DNA of 15,446 nt from NCBI GenBank assembly GCA_017550205.1, contig JAFZPS010000060.1, positions 1-15,446 on the forward strand, written 5' to 3'. A program made the translations under genes and the position numbers. Positions 5,011-10,663 of this stretch are shown here, piece by piece; within the stretch, counting starts at the first letter, position 1, and the number at the start of each line of letters is the position of its first letter. The notes under the pieces were generated by a model, which saw only the letters and a list, made by a program, of their open reading frames with translations, searched no databases and had not been told where the DNA came from. Source of the DNA: Bacilli bacterium. GTDB lineage: Bacteria > Bacillota_I > Bacilli_A > RF39 > UBA660.

Positions 5011-5034
5011 AAAAAAAGTCCTACAAAGGACTTT
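5011..5034 (-). terminator. Intrinsic terminator of the 201-aa gene
   Basis: AAAGTCCT, loop TTGT, AGGACTTT followed by Ts: a perfect 8-bp stem (5015-5022 with 5027-5034) that overlaps the stop codon of the gene it ends. Confidence 0.88.
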
Positions 5035-5638
5035 ATTGTTTAATGAATACTTTATTTGATTCTTTTCCACTATTATGATATCTATTTAAAATAGTTGATA
5101 GTTTGTTTTCATCAGCTTTTTCTTCTGCCTTTTTAACTGTTTCAAGAATACTCTTCATTTCATCAATTGCTTTTGCTATTCTTGAATCAATATCATCAGA
5201 AACTATAGAACCACTTTCTTTTAATTTAACAGCTTCTACATAATCACACAATGCCTTACCATATAATGATGCATATCTACCATAATATAAATATCTTCTA
5301 ATTGCATCCTTTTTGCATGCTACTAAGTTTTCATATCTTGTATAGCTATCATTATCCTTATATTTAAAAGGATTATTATGAAGATCATAATTATCATCCC
5401 AAATATTTATATCATTATAATCAAATTCCATTCCCGCAATTATATAACTAAAATATTCTTCTTTTATTTCACCATCCATATTAACAGGATATGCAATTTT
5501 CATAGTCTTTTCATCTACATCTGTAGTAAAATGTACTACATTCATATGATAATCATAATCTAATAGAATATATTTAGAATAAATCTTCTCATATAATTCT
5601 TTAAATCCATCAAACATTTCTCTATCAATTTTTTTCAT
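5033..5638 (-). CDS. Unrecognised 201-aa soluble protein
   Basis: I do not recognise this protein. It has no signal peptide or membrane segment. Residues 1-90 are rich in Tyr, Asp and Asn and look like an alpha/beta fold (MKKIDREMFDGFKELYEKIY, then NVVHFTTDVDEKTMKIAY, later GMEFDYNDINIW). Residues about 95-135 are aromatic and basic (YENLVACKKDAIRRYLYYGRYASLYGKAL), and residues 140-185 are charged and helical (SRIAKAIDEMKSILETVKKAEEKADENK), possibly a coiled coil. The ATG is supported by AGGTGA upstream. It has its own extended -10 promoter and terminator, so it is monocistronic. It separates cysS from mrnC, which are adjacent in B. subtilis. Codon use matches its neighbours, so I see no sign of recent transfer. 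Confidence 0.85.
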   Translation of the reverse strand: MKKIDREMFDGFKELYEKIYSKYILLDYDYHMNVVHFTTDVDEKTMKIAYPVNMDGEIKEEYFSYIIAGMEFDYNDINIWDDNYDLHNNPFKYKDNDSYTRYENLVACKKDAIRRYLYYGRYASLYGKALCDYVEAVKLKESGSIVSDDIDSRIAKAIDEMKSILETVKKAEEKADENKLSTILNRYHNSGKESNKVFIKQ

Positions 5639-5673: not shown

Positions 5674-5704
5674 AAAAAAAAGAAAGTAAAATTTACTTTC
5701 TTTT
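5674..5704 (-). terminator. Intrinsic terminator of cysS
   Basis: A near-perfect inverted repeat: AAAAGAAAGTAAA (692-704 arm, in the 5600-5700 block) against TTTACTTTCTTTT (5678-5690), followed by more Ts. The stem is AT-rich but long; the cysS stop codon overlaps it. Confidence 0.75.
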
Positions 5705-7094
5705 ATATCATTTCATATGTAGTTCCTTCTCTAGAATCTATTAATTTAATACCCTTTTCAAGTAACTCATCACGAATAGAGTCTGCTTTAGCAAAATCTT
5801 TATTAGCTTTTGCTTCTTTTCTTTCTTCAATTTTACCAAGTATATAACTTTCTAAGTCTGAATCAATTTCTTTTTCTTCTGATTTTAATAAGTCTAATGA
5901 AAGTACTTTATCAAACTCTTCAATAATAGCTAACTTAGTACCATCACTAATCTCATCTTTTAATACTTCATATAATAAAGTAATCATATTGGAAGTATTA
6001 AAGTCATCTTCTATATTTAATTTAAATCTATATATATAATCATTCTTTTGACTTTCATCAACTTCATCCTTTACTAATTTAGAAATTCTACTCTTTAATT
6101 TTAAATATGCATTTTGTGCTCCATCAAGAATCTCATAAGAGAAAGTTAATTGATTATGATAATAAGAATTTAAACATAAATATCTATAACTTAATGGATT
6201 ATATCCTTTTTCTTCTAATAGAGATACTGTTAAGAATTCTCCTTTAGATTTACTCATCTTACCAGTTTCATCATTTAAAAATCCTAAATGAACCCAATAA
6301 TTACACCATTTATGTCCTAAATATGCTTCAGATTGGGCTATTTCGTTAGTATGATGTGGGAATATTGCATCTTCTGCACCAAAATGAACATCTAGATATT
6401 CTCCTAAATATTTAATTGATATACCAGAACATTCAATATGCCATCCAGGGTATCCCCTTCCCCATGGTGAATCCCATTGTAGTTCTTGATTTGCAAATTT
6501 AGAATTAGTAAACCATAAACCAAAGTCAAATGGATTCTTCTTAGCACTATCTTCTTCAATATCTTCTCTAACAGCAACCATTAAATCATCACTATTACGT
6601 CCAGATAATTTATAATAGTCTCTATATTTATCAGTATCAAAATAAACATTTCCATCAGATAAATATGCATAACCTGTGTCTATTAACTTAGTAATCATCT
6701 TAATATACATATCTATATTATCAGTAGCATTACTAACTGTATCAGGCCATCTAATATTTAATTTATCACAATCATTCTTAAAACATTCAGTATAGTATGT
6801 AGCTATTTCTTTAGATGACTTATGTTCTCTCTTAGATGCTACAGCCATCTTATCTTCTCCAGAATCTCCATCTCCTACTAAATGTCCAACATCAGTAATA
6901 TTCATTACTCTTTGTACATCGTATCCCAAGAACTTCCATCCTTTTTCTATAATATCTTCAGATATATAAGTTCTTAAGTTACCAATATGAGCAAAATGAT
7001 ATACAGTAGGTCCACACGTATACATTTTAATTATTCCTTCTTCTCTAGGAATAAATTCTTCAACTTGTTTATTCATTGTATTATAAATTTTCAT
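5703..7094 (-). CDS. cysS: Cysteinyl-tRNA synthetase
   Basis: A complete 463-residue class I aminoacyl-tRNA synthetase charging tRNA-Cys. The N-terminus has TCGPTVYHFAHIGNLR: Cys27 is the first zinc ligand and HIGN (36-39) is the HIGH motif. WHIECSG (218-224) brings Cys222, and PHHTNE (246-251) the last zinc ligands. KMSKS is at 279-283. The C-terminal helical part includes IRDELLEKGI near the end, also typical. The start is supported by AGGTGA before the ATG and by length. It has its own extended -10 promoter, 18 bases upstream, but no terminator separates it from clpC 34 bases before, so read-through is possible. No T-box leader is present. Confidence 0.97.
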   Translation of the reverse strand: MKIYNTMNKQVEEFIPREEGIIKMYTCGPTVYHFAHIGNLRTYISEDIIEKGWKFLGYDVQRVMNITDVGHLVGDGDSGEDKMAVASKREHKSSKEIATYYTECFKNDCDKLNIRWPDTVSNATDNIDMYIKMITKLIDTGYAYLSDGNVYFDTDKYRDYYKLSGRNSDDLMVAVREDIEEDSAKKNPFDFGLWFTNSKFANQELQWDSPWGRGYPGWHIECSGISIKYLGEYLDVHFGAEDAIFPHHTNEIAQSEAYLGHKWCNYWVHLGFLNDETGKMSKSKGEFLTVSLLEEKGYNPLSYRYLCLNSYYHNQLTFSYEILDGAQNAYLKLKSRISKLVKDEVDESQKNDYIYRFKLNIEDDFNTSNMITLLYEVLKDEISDGTKLAIIEEFDKVLSLDLLKSEEKEIDSDLESYILGKIEERKEAKANKDFAKADSIRDELLEKGIKLIDSREGTTYEMI

Positions 7095-7128: not shown

Positions 7129-8988
7129 CTAATTATAATTAACTATTTTAGTAAAATTATTAAATCCTTCTTTACAGATAATCTTATCATCAAAACCAAT
7201 ACTAGAACTAATAGTAGAAATATGTATAAATACAATACACTTACTTATATTAATATCTCCAATAAAACCCTTAGCTATAGAATCGTTTATTATTCTATAT
7301 ACTCTTTTATTACACTTATCTATATTCTTAATATATATAATACTAAAAGGATTATACTTAATACTTTCAAACAACTCATTTCTATATTCCCTACATTCAT
7401 TCATATCAATAACCACATAATTACAATTATAAATATTTTTAGCTATCTTATCTACCAATAATGTAATATCTAATACATTTTTACTAACTAAAAGAAGACT
7501 TATACAACTATTATTTTTAATATAATCATATTTTTCTAATATATTGACTATTTCTTTATCAATATTAAATGTTCTAAATCTCTCACTATAATCCTCTAAT
7601 ATTCCATATCTATTATAAATAACTTTATCCACATCATCTCTATTAATAATAATCTTACTTCCACAAAATATCTTATCATTATACTTACTTCGTAATTTTA
7701 ACTCCTTATTTTTATAATATAATGCTTTCTTAAAATTATGTCTTTTTATTTCTCTATTCTTAGAATCCTCTACTTCTTTTATATTAACTTCATAATCCAA
7801 TAACTCTCTATTTAAAGAATTATTTAGAGTAGCATAAGCACATACTTCATCAAGTAAATCTATCGCTTTATCAGGCTGTCTACCATTAAATATAGAACTA
7901 TAAGATAAATCCACTATTCTATTTAAAATATTTTTATTTAAAACTACTCCATGATACTTCTCATAAATAAATCTTAATCCCTTCAATATATTAAAAACAC
8001 TCTCTTTATTTGTTTCTTCTATATAAACCTTTTGAAATCTCCTATCAAGAGCCTTATCTTTAGAAATAAATTTATTATACTCATCTATTGTAGTAGCACC
8101 AATAACTTTAATATTTCCTCTAGCTAAATATGGTTTAACTATATTAGAAGCATCTATCGCCCCTTCTGCTCCTCCAGCACCTACTAAAGTATGTATTTCA
8201 TCTATAAATAATATAATATTAGGATTATCCACAATTTCTGTTAATAACTTATTTATTCTTTCTTCAAATTCACCTCTATACTTAGTCCCAGCTACTAATA
8301 TAGACATAGATATACTATAAATAGTCATATTCTTTAATTTTAAAGGAACTCTACCTTCTTCTATTCTTCTAGATAATTCCTCTACAATAGCTGTTTTTCC
8401 AACTCCTGCTTCTCCTATTAATAAGGGATTATTTTTATTCTTACGCAACAATATTTGTATAATTCTATCTATTTCTTTATCCCTTCCAATTACAGGATCG
8501 TATTTAATTGAATCTTTATTCATATTAACACCTAAATCATCTATTAGAAGATTACTATTCTTAATAACATTATCATTAGATAAAAATTCATCACAAAGTT
8601 TATCAATATCAATATTCATATCAATTAATATTCTATTAGCTACCCCATCTCCTTCTTCTAATATAGCTATAAACAAATTATAAGGTGTAACCTTCTTACT
8701 TTTATTTTTTGAATAATATGTAGCATTATTAATTATTCGTCTAAGTAATGGTGTAAATAAAAACCAAGAATTGGAATGTGTTCCAATACCTATAATACTA
8801 ATTAATCTACTTTTAAAAGAATCATAAGTAATGCCATAATTACTAAGTATCTCACAAATATCTAAATCACTATGTAATATAGATAAAAGTAAATGCTCAC
8901 TACCTACATATGGATGTCTTAATTCATACATTTCTTTTTTTGCATTAATAATTATCTTTTGAGAATCTTCATCAAAGAATAAATTCAT
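7129..8988 (-). CDS. clpC: ClpC-like AAA+ unfoldase with degenerate, truncated second ATPase domain
   Basis: A 619-residue ClpC relative; full ClpC has about 810. Clp_N domain: residues 1-140 (HPYVGSEHLLLSIL and the second repeat TPYNLFIAILEEGDGVANRIL). First AAA+ domain: 165-390, apparently intact, with GEAGVGKT (192-199, Walker A), ILFIDEIHTLVGAGGAEGAIDASN (259-282, Walker B), GATT (297-300) and DKALDRRFQ (311-319, arginine finger). A short middle/UVR-like helix follows (411-435). The second AAA+ domain (from about 470) is only a shadow: the Walker A position reads LLLVSKNVLDIT, the Walker B position FSIIYIKNID, the pore loop is absent, and the protein stops before the C-terminal small subdomain, though an IGF tripeptide (597-599) remains. 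I start at the ATG at 8986-8988 (AGGTGA upstream); an earlier in-frame start would add 15 residues unlike the family and overlap the promoter. Position before cysS matches B. subtilis clpC, but ctsR, mcsA and mcsB are absent. Confidence 0.88.
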   Translation of the reverse strand: MNLFFDEDSQKIIINAKKEMYELRHPYVGSEHLLLSILHSDLDICEILSNYGITYDSFKSRLISIIGIGTHSNSWFLFTPLLRRIINNATYYSKNKSKKVTPYNLFIAILEEGDGVANRILIDMNIDIDKLCDEFLSNDNVIKNSNLLIDDLGVNMNKDSIKYDPVIGRDKEIDRIIQILLRKNKNNPLLIGEAGVGKTAIVEELSRRIEEGRVPLKLKNMTIYSISMSILVAGTKYRGEFEERINKLLTEIVDNPNIILFIDEIHTLVGAGGAEGAIDASNIVKPYLARGNIKVIGATTIDEYNKFISKDKALDRRFQKVYIEETNKESVFNILKGLRFIYEKYHGVVLNKNILNRIVDLSYSSIFNGRQPDKAIDLLDEVCAYATLNNSLNRELLDYEVNIKEVEDSKNREIKRHNFKKALYYKNKELKLRSKYNDKIFCGSKIIINRDDVDKVIYNRYGILEDYSERFRTFNIDKEIVNILEKYDYIKNNSCISLLLVSKNVLDITLLVDKIAKNIYNCNYVVIDMNECREYRNELFESIKYNPFSIIYIKNIDKCNKRVYRIINDSIAKGFIGDINISKCIVFIHISTISSSIGFDDKIICKEGFNNFTKIVNYN

Positions 8989-9058: not shown

Positions 9059-9082
9059 AAAAAAAGAAGCCCTAAGGCTTCT
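9059..9082 (-). terminator. Intrinsic terminator of the carrier gene
   Basis: AGAAGCC, loop TTAG, GGCTTCT (9076-9082 with 9065-9071), followed by seven Ts. Confidence 0.88.
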
Positions 9083-9091
9083 AAACTAATC

Positions 9092-10663
9092 TTATATTAA
9101 AGCTAAAATTATAAATGTGATTAATAAAACTATGAATAATTCTAATAGTAATTTCCAAATAGTTTTTAACCATTCTTTATAAGAAACTTTAAGATATGAT
9201 AATATAGCCATTAACACTAAACTTGTAGGTGCAAATAACATTGCTAAACCATACATAGATTGTAATATAATAGCGGCTAATGGATAATTATCTGCTTTTG
9301 TTACTATGCTTGTATAATATGGAGCTAAAGCTTGGAAACTATAAGCAACATCTGAATTAAATATAGGAGCAAGTAATGCTACTATTACAGTAGTTGCTAA
9401 ATTAAATCCTTTGCTTAACTCTAAAATTGCTTTATAGATAACTAATTGGAATGGATGATATGTTACTATTACTAAAATACTATATAGTAATACAACTAAT
9501 GCGAATGGTGCTAATGCTTTTTTAGCTCCTTCAATAAATCCATCAAATATATCATCTAATTTAACTTTATAAATTAATACTAGTACTAAAATTGTTAATG
9601 CCATTGGTAAGAATAAATCTGTCATAGTCCAATTACCAAATGCATTGAAGCTTCCTAGTATTTTTCCAAATATTGGGAATTTGAAGATTGTAAATTCTTT
9701 AACTGCTGTAGTAGCTTTTTCAAATGCATCTACACCAAATGCAGGCCAAGGTAAAAATGCTAAAACAAATAGTACAAATAATAAACTAAATGTTAAAACA
9801 AATGGCCAGATTTTATGTTTTCCAGTAACTTTTGCTGGAACTACGATTACATCTTCCTCAATTAATGCTGCTTTATTTGAGTTTTTACTCTTCTTTGCTG
9901 GTGCTTTTTTAGCAGGTGCTTTCTTTGCAGGTGCTTTTTTGGCAACTACTTTTTCATTTTTTGCTGTCTTTTTTGCTGGTGCTTTCTTTGCAGGTGCTTT
10001 TTTAGCAACTACTTTTTCTTCTTTTACTTCAGCCTTCTTAGCTACTTTATCTTTTTTCTTAAATCCAAGATACATAAGTACATTGAAAATAACAATGATA
10101 ACTGCAACTAATAAGATAATAAATCTAACACCAAGTTGAAAATTAGTATTTAATGCAAATGAAGCTGTTAAAACTCCTGTATTATTTTCTGCATAAGTAG
10201 TACCAATTAAACCAGCTATAATACCACCTATAGTAACTAATGCTGCAGTAATTTTATCATATCCCATTAATAAAATAATAGAAATGATAAATGGAATAAA
10301 TAAAGCTATTCCAAATTGTATACCACATACAGATACTAATAATGCAATTAAAGCTACAATAATTGATAATACAATTTTTCCTTTTCCTTCAAATGTTTTC
10401 GCTATTCTTTCTAAGAATACACGATATCCTGGAATTTTATATAAAATTCCATAAAAACCTCCAACTAGGATAAAGAATAATCCAATGTATCCAAAATAAC
10501 TAAAAGAAGTAATTGGATAATTAAATAAATCAAATAATCCCATTTGAACGCGTCCTTGATCAATATATTGTCCTGAATAATAAGCAGCTGGTAATATCCA
10601 AGATAATAATAAGAATACTAGCATAGTAATAAGAACGACTTTTATTGTATTATGTTTCTTCAT
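9092..10663 (-). CDS. YfcC/DcuC-like membrane carrier with Lys-Ala-Pro-rich central loop
   Basis: A 523-residue polytopic membrane protein of the ion-transporter type found in YfcC-like, short-chain fatty acid and C4-dicarboxylate carriers. Evidence is the N-terminal helix ending LLLSWILPAAYYSG, the long hydrophobic run with GLFFILVGGFYGIL (61-74), LFIPFIISIILLMGYDKITAALVTIGG (121-147) and C-terminal helices up to 523; I count about a dozen membrane segments. Substrate cannot be read from the sequence. The two halves are joined by a cytosolic loop (about 202-283) holding two copies of EKVVAKKAPAKKAPAKK, the second one KAPA unit longer; such histone-H1-like tails are unusual in carriers. GGGAGG precedes the ATG. 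It is monocistronic, with its own consensus promoter and terminator, and lies between lysS and clpC where ctsR-mcsA-mcsB sit in Bacillus. Confidence 0.82.
   Translation of the reverse strand: MKKHNTIKVVLITMLVFLLLSWILPAAYYSGQYIDQGRVQMGLFDLFNYPITSFSYFGYIGLFFILVGGFYGILYKIPGYRVFLERIAKTFEGKGKIVLSIIVALIALLVSVCGIQFGIALFIPFIISIILLMGYDKITAALVTIGGIIAGLIGTTYAENNTGVLTASFALNTNFQLGVRFIILLVAVIIVIFNVLMYLGFKKKDKVAKKAEVKEEKVVAKKAPAKKAPAKKTAKNEKVVAKKAPAKKAPAKKAPAKKSKNSNKAALIEEDVIVVPAKVTGKHKIWPFVLTFSLLFVLFVLAFLPWPAFGVDAFEKATTAVKEFTIFKFPIFGKILGSFNAFGNWTMTDLFLPMALTILVLVLIYKVKLDDIFDGFIEGAKKALAPFALVVLLYSILVIVTYHPFQLVIYKAILELSKGFNLATTVIVALLAPIFNSDVAYSFQALAPYYTSIVTKADNYPLAAIILQSMYGLAMLFAPTSLVLMAILSYLKVSYKEWLKTIWKLLLELFIVLLITFIILALI
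9890..10018 (-). repeat. In-frame tandem repeat encoding K-A-P-A-K units
   Basis: Residues 216-233 and 237-258 of the carrier are two copies of EKVV followed by AKKAP/AKK units. At DNA level the plus strand repeats gcaggtgctttcttt and gctggtgctttttt with small changes, as expected from slippage or unequal exchange. The unit count may vary between strains. Confidence 0.9.

Follow-up and report, generated by a model that had tools for sequence, protein, structure and literature searches.

A ClpC orthologue from gut Bacilli with a degenerate D2 ATPase module and a retained candidate ClpP-docking tripeptide

The stretch of DNA analysed here, termed the window, comprises 15,446 nucleotides (contig JAFZPS010000060.1 of assembly GCA_017550205.1) from a member of the Bacilli of order RF39, and encodes a 619-residue protein derived from the unfoldase ClpC. 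The gene occupies 8988..7129 of the minus strand, with its ATG at 8988 and its stop codon at 7129-7131; an earlier reading made from the letters alone (the sequence-only reading) had given the correct coordinates, to which the strand can now be added. Here, we argue that the protein is probably a ClpC orthologue in which the second AAA+ module (D2) is now a pseudo-ATPase, and that it acts as an unfoldase for the peptidase ClpP, powered by the first module (D1) and with D2 as a docking platform. D1 is most likely the sole motor and D2 a docking collar. The sequence-only reading had offered three roles for the protein: a one-engine unfoldase, a cap or adaptor of ClpP, and a regulator that forms mixed assemblies with a different Clp ATPase. 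That proposal is borne out in part. The one-engine option is supported by a D2 loss that is both common to close relatives and recurrent, by the retention of D1 and of the docking tripeptide (written xGF; IGF in the window), by the co-occurrence of ClpC with ClpP, and by a structural model that places IGF in a disordered loop; the other two options are disfavoured for reasons given below.

The N-terminal domain (N-domain) and D1 are intact, as had been claimed. The N-domain (residues 1-140; 8569..8988, minus strand, as are all features of this gene) contains two Clp_N stretches (Pfam PF02861, E 3.6e-14) and is folded in the AlphaFold2 model. Within the large subdomain of D1 (residues 147-330; 7999..8550), recognized by Pfam and by inspection of motifs, we find what we take to be a Walker A motif (GEAGVGKT, 192-199), pore loop 1 (GTKYRGEFEE, 234-243), a Walker B motif (ILFIDEIH, 259-266) and an arginine finger (ALDRRFQ, 313-319). 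The D1 lid and a short M-domain region follow (residues 331-441; 7666..7998), helical in the model and matching AAA_lid_9 (PF17871) at 328-426. Pfam matches to the protein (Clp_N, AAA and AAA_lid_9) span residues 16-426, and the D2-small domain (PF10431) is absent from them.

The D2 remnant (residues 478-619; 7132..7557), delimited by model confidence and by alignment to Bacillus subtilis ClpC, is an alpha/beta core that lacks both the active site and the small subdomain. Its Walker A is replaced by SKNVLDIT (502-509; 7462..7485) and its Walker B by IIYIKNIDKC (550-559; 7312..7341), and the GYVG pore loop, arginine finger and sensor 2 are missing as well, in agreement with the earlier description of a dead second ring without its small C-terminal subdomain. 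The structural alignment to B. subtilis ClpC (810 residues) stops at ClpC residue 712, which leaves a C-terminal gap of about 98 residues, and the other losses behind the 191-residue deficit are internal; the earlier statement that the protein ends about 190 residues short therefore holds for total length but not for the C-terminal end. Assignment to ClpC rests on the Clp_N double repeat, the D1 motifs, the xGF loop that follows the sensor-1 strand, and orthology: the gene order equals that of a complete ClpC (L049), and the window protein is nested in the ClpC tree of its family (here and below, genus, family and order are those of the genome nearest to the window). The features of ClpC that it lacks are the D2 Walker A and B motifs and the D2 small C-terminal subdomain. 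The protein reaches the cut-off of none of the NCBIfam equivalog models, those for ClpA (347.8 against 993.15) and ClpB (336.3 against 1232.1) included.

The IGF tripeptide reported by the sequence-only reading is present at residues 597-599 (7192..7200). The AlphaFold2 model predicts a folded D2 core, with block means of the predicted local distance difference test (pLDDT) of 86-93 over residues 481-590, except for 78 at 531-540. Residues 591-613 (7150..7218) have no secondary structure in the model, and pLDDT drops below 50 at 595-603, with IGF inside this dip; the tripeptide is thus predicted to lie in a flexible, candidate ClpP-docking loop, and not in a buried helix. AlphaFold2 was also run on an independently reduced ClpC (L145), and there too IGF falls in a loop or tail predicted to be disordered. 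Given this predicted placement, a structural role for IGF is unlikely.

The degenerate state of D2 is shared by close homologues. A protein search gave at least 120 matching rows, the window's own protein included, and 116 of the 120 listed homologues (window included) were aligned as A1, four fragments (P0060, P0065, P0103 and P0110) being left out. The [D/E]E pair at the D2 Walker B position is missing in 115 of the 116 rows and the Walker A consensus in 73. GF is kept in 115 of the 116 rows, and in 114 of the 115 D2-dead rows; the exception is P0105, the end of which looks frameshifted, and P0107 has the sole live D2. Averaged over all pairs of 41 homologues of 612-631 residues, sequence identity falls from 89% in the D1 core to 82% in the N-domain and 73% in the D2 remnant.

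All 241 genomes searched in the order contain some match, with ClpB and a single-AAA protein included in that count, and many ClpC proteins of the same family are about 740-780 residues long and have a complete D2. Within the genus, 15 ClpC loci and the window give 16 rows, all D2-dead and all with xGF or IGL, that form one clade on the tree of N-domain and D1 (Shimodaira-Hasegawa-like approximate likelihood-ratio test, SH-aLRT, 99). Their D2 ranges from a state with Walker A kept and Walker B lost, in proteins of about 730 residues, down to the loss of both in proteins of 592-619 residues. Every same-genus relative compared is thus D2-dead. Sequencing error or frameshift can be rejected, because the same state is found in many independent records and a search downstream of the gene, within the window, gave no remains of the D2 C terminus.

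The distribution of ClpP follows that of ClpC. Housekeeping ClpP was counted at E below 1e-60; for 36 of the 39 genus genomes the whole ClpC protein served as a query too, whereas three (G060-G062) were searched by the Clp_N profile only, by which an absence of ClpC is soft, since the Clp_N control was missed in B. subtilis. Full-length ClpC occurs in 15 of these genomes and housekeeping ClpP in 16: all 15 with full-length ClpC have ClpP, against 1 of the 24 without (G010, 60% complete; Fisher p 6e-10). When the weaker ClpP-family matches of G015 and G032 are added, the latter count becomes 3 of 24 (p 3e-8). All that was found of ClpC in G029 is an N-domain open reading frame of 139 residues at the conserved locus (L076:5502-5918), and ClpP was not found in that genome. 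The ClpP of the genus looks normal, with conserved Ser, His and Asp, presumably the catalytic triad, in 13 sequences recovered from 15 loci. Neither HslV nor MecA was found in the 39 genomes, the positive control being detected in each case.

Outside the genus, 29 genomes of the family show the same association, with ClpP in 15 of 17 that have ClpC versus 1 of 12 that do not (p 2e-5); the survey from which they come covered 42 hand-picked genomes, and those termed ClpC-less were so judged by the best E-value among the matches listed. ClpP is present in 12 of the 14 picked genomes outside the genus that have a D2-dead ClpC. Ten of these 12 yielded neither another xGF-bearing Clp ATPase nor a match to the ClpX model above 32 bits, and the D2-small proteins found in them consist of a ClpB of about 705 residues without xGF (five genomes), a Lon-like protein (G090, L212) or none. 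D2-small proteins were not found in G084, G079, G097 and G081 (94-95% complete), where the D2-dead ClpC is, on the genome sequences, the sole candidate ClpP partner found.

Two further proteins were considered as ClpP partners in the genus and rejected. The protein of about 705 residues is a ClpB without an N-domain, and xGF is absent from all 17 sequences checked, 10 of them from the genus. A D1-like AAA protein of about 325 residues occurs in genomes both with and without ClpP. The latter is a stand-alone AAA+ ATPase about 40% identical to the D1 of ClpC and present in most genus genomes; at two loci (L059, from about 1204 on the plus strand, and L062) the protein encoded next has membrane stretches as well as zinc-ribbon-like cysteines. 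The genus also has a ClpX-like ATPase of about 535-605 residues with an xGF loop (L073, L124-L137 and L139-L143), including genomes in which no ClpP was found.

Loss of D2 catalysis has recurred. The D2 Walker B pair is missing in 39 of 113 ClpC proteins compared, which on the tree of N-domain and D1 requires 8 changes by parsimony, or 11 losses if loss is irreversible, and on the same tree xGF was lost twice. Because some of the retrieved loci behind the 113 rows were chosen for their short frames, and this quick tree leaves 30 of its 110 inner branches open (support under 80), these counts show recurrence and not frequency; L036, L037, L044, L046, L050, L156 (cut at a contig end) and L163 were left out, and one identical row was dropped. 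What the 39 D2-dead proteins keep is uneven: xGF in 34, Walker A in 21, the pore motif in 17, sensor 1 in 7, and the arginine finger and sensor 2 in 3 each. Both D2 Walker motifs are lost in 18 proteins, 15 of which keep xGF; for comparison, xGF is present in 72 of 74 proteins with a live Walker B. Conservation of at least 95% among the 74 live D2s is reached by 27 D2 columns, and those best kept in the dead set are a phenylalanine (95%), a proline (92%) and a glycine (87%), the first and third being the F and G of xGF. Conservation of D1 in the same 39 proteins is close to complete (Walker A in 39, as GKT in 35 and GKS in 4; Walker B in 38; pore loop in 38; RRF in 39). An extreme form is a ClpC of 552 residues from another family (L104:3145-4803), which ends exactly in ...KNKIGF. 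No close relative of it was found, the best of 7960 scored candidates among the matches listed reaching 298 bits against a self score of 1164, and its IGF C terminus therefore rests on one genome.

Several observations, among them a raised substitution ratio in D2 that is taken up below, weigh against a D1-powered unfoldase that docks on ClpP through the D2 loop. The ClpP of the window's own genome is presumed from that of relatives, and two genomes with a D2-dead ClpC that keeps xGF (G122 and G289) gave no ClpP. Other possible partners of ClpP exist. In the remaining two of the 12 genomes outside the genus, these are a further Clp ATPase whose D2 is live and which bears IGF (L213 of G246, beside a helicase-like gene) and a ClpX-like protein with IGF (L211 of G094). 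The case for a sole partner is also weaker in the window's own clade, since in G001, G018 and G022 the ClpX-like ATPase, of about 580 residues and with an xGF loop, is a second candidate. The reading frame of this ClpX-like protein could be followed at 20 of 21 loci, and xGF is present in all 20, in genomes with and without ClpP; xGF alone is therefore no proof of ClpP binding. One D2-dead protein (L017, from G016, a 69% complete genome with ClpP) has lost about 50 residues of D1 in frame, including pore loop 1 and Walker B, while keeping IGF, and would, if this loss is real, be unable to pull. In family f19, the four D2-dead ClpC proteins examined (L152, L153, L155 and L157) lack xGF though ClpP is kept, ClpX was not found in their genomes, and three of the four have LRF or LHF near the place of xGF. 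In f18, xGF is missing from L147, L148 and L158, and Walker B is live in two of these.

These points must be read together with three other explanations. Decay in progress, in which these small genomes are losing ClpCP piece by piece and the D2 remnant and its loop persist with little function until they too disappear, is unlikely, though there is evidence for it: full-length ClpC was not found in 24 of 39 genomes of the genus, 23 of which are also without housekeeping ClpP, G029 is down to an N-domain frame, and D1 is damaged in L017. The ratio of nonsynonymous to synonymous substitution rates (dN/dS), computed for the window against three relatives, is 0.38-0.68 in the D2 remnant against 0.11-0.16 in the D1 core, and these figures bear on decay from both sides. 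Neutral simulations of matching composition gave means of 1.2-1.7, well above the D2 values, although 0.57 and 0.68 touch the lowest simulated ratios (minima of 0.57-0.83); all these ratios are only indicative, as they derive from the NG86 method applied to four AT-rich sequences, and simulated divergence (proportion of synonymous differences, pS, up to 0.27) is below part of that observed (0.25-0.47). Since its dN/dS lies under the simulated neutral means and above that of D1, the D2 remnant is, as far as the coding sequences tell, constrained but more loosely than D1. Decay is further opposed by the open frames and the D2 identity of the 41 homologues described above, and by several lineages in which the docking motif outlives every catalytic motif.

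It is quite improbable that the protein is a cap, adaptor or regulator of ClpP, which would bind through IGF and recruit through the N-domain without unfolding, or would mix into the hexamers of another ATPase. Retention of xGF and of the N-domain would suit such a role, and L017, with IGF but neither D1 Walker B nor pore loop, would fit a cap; however, both of these D1 motifs are intact in the other 38 D2-dead proteins, which disfavours a pure cap or adaptor. Mixing is disfavoured by the lack of a partner, as no second ClpB/C-type Hsp100 was found in G001, G018 and G022 (84, 94 and 88% complete), and no D2-small Clp ATPase in the four genomes outside the genus (G084, G079, G097 and G081) that combine ClpP with a D2-dead ClpC. 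An unfoldase or chaperone independent of ClpP, with IGF in a structural role and the ClpX-like protein serving ClpP, is very improbable: G122 and G289 would be examples of it, and the ClpX-like protein bears xGF whether or not ClpP is present, but it is contradicted by the strong co-occurrence of ClpC and ClpP, by the 10 picked genomes in which ClpP and a D2-dead ClpC occur without any other xGF-bearing Clp ATPase being found, and by the predicted disorder around IGF.

For the D1-powered ClpP unfoldase that we favour, we infer that the window ClpC forms hexamers, hydrolyses ATP in D1, threads polypeptides, binds ClpP and has a range of weakly folded substrates. Substrates would be recruited by the N-domain, and the D1 ring would hydrolyse ATP and thread the polypeptide by means of its KYRG pore loops. 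The D2 core would be left as a passive collar, from which a flexible loop in each subunit would set one IGF tripeptide into the hydrophobic pockets of ClpP. The expectation of loosely folded substrates comes from the biochemistry of ClpA D1 and of a ClpE mutant, with which a D1-only motor is compatible. In ClpA, D2 is described as the principal motor and D1 as an auxiliary and back-up motor (PMC9663308). The ClpE Walker B2 mutant, strongly impaired like all mutants tested, is reported to degrade casein and CtsR partially, and not to degrade aggregated malate dehydrogenase (PMC13125188).

Comparison with known systems highlights both similarities and differences. The window protein differs from ClpC of B. 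subtilis and Staphylococcus aureus in that its D2 is without active site, pore loop, arginine finger, sensor 2 and small subdomain, and its genus differs in that MecA was not found. Double-ring AAA+ proteins such as NSF also have one working and one structural ring; however, they are not known as partners of ClpP, and the AAA+ fold of the inactive ring is complete in them. Escherichia coli ClpA resembles the arrangement proposed here in having two rings with divided labour, D1 being described as able to act when D2 stalls, but its D2 is the principal motor, whereas that of the window ClpC is dead by descent (PMC9663308). The ClpE Walker B2 mutant likewise hydrolyses ATP by D1 only and retains some degradation with ClpP, but it was made in the laboratory, its D2 fold is complete, and it is not a natural protein (PMC13125188). 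ClpI of Actinomycetota is a ClpC-like class defined in part by its ClpP loop, and one subtype lacks an LGF-like motif; it belongs to another phylum, and loss of the D2 active site is not described for it in the available part of its account (PMC10149685). ClpX has one working module of the HCLR type (clade names as in PMC9663308), unlike the window protein, in which the working module is D1 (AAA, AAA_lid_9) and the D2-type module has lost its motifs. No report of a naturally occurring ClpC with a dead D2 and a retained ClpP loop was recognized in the open-licence literature searched.

The surroundings of the gene are conserved. The order is dus-RDD-lysS-yfcC-like-clpC-cysS-mrnC-rlmB-sigH, with neighbours named by reading of their translations, and it is the same in relatives, complete or not, as far as their loci reach; the loci of L104 and L108 have none of these neighbours. 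Downstream of clpC, after a gap of 34 bp, lies the conserved neighbour cysS (5703..7094, minus strand), and in the window a gene for a protein of 201 residues (5033-5638) stands between cysS and mrnC. Upstream, a terminator-like hairpin of the preceding gene lies at 9065..9082 on the minus strand (1 found, 0.0 expected). The sequence-only reading had credited clpC with a normal promoter, and a candidate, TTGATT-17-TAGAAT (9033-9005), is indeed found ahead of the gene; a scan of both strands, however, returned 7 promoter-like sites where 5.0 are expected by chance. The sequence GGTGAT is located upstream of the ATG. Elsewhere in the window, a long repeat of lysine, alanine and proline (KKAPAKKAPAKK...) separates membrane stretches of the YfcC-like membrane protein (9092-10663), and a SecE-like protein (2125-2442) is extended at its N terminus by a lysine-rich segment of about 50 residues.

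RF39 and neighbouring orders are reported to have undergone multiple independent losses of peptidoglycan and of sporulation (PMC10868615). We lean towards the view that ClpC has repeatedly lost its principal motor in uncultured gut Bacilli, with ClpCP running on D1 alone and D2 reduced to a passive adaptor for ClpP, in the extreme a stub with the docking tripeptide on a free C-terminal tail (L145, L104), which would parallel, by convergence, the C-terminal docking tails of proteasomal ATPases. Natural loss of D2 catalysis with the ClpP hook kept would show that docking is separable from pulling and that a D1 ring is sufficient, which bears on the view of ClpA as a machine with D2 as its main engine and D1 as a helper (PMC9663308). 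The proteins of about 550-620 residues would be natural minimal forms of ClpC in which the sufficiency of D1 may be tested, and the graded series from complete protein to stub may reveal which parts of D2 are needed for ClpP binding. The seemingly repeated decay of D2 in gut Bacilli, with the hook for ClpP retained, suggests that one weak motor can suffice.
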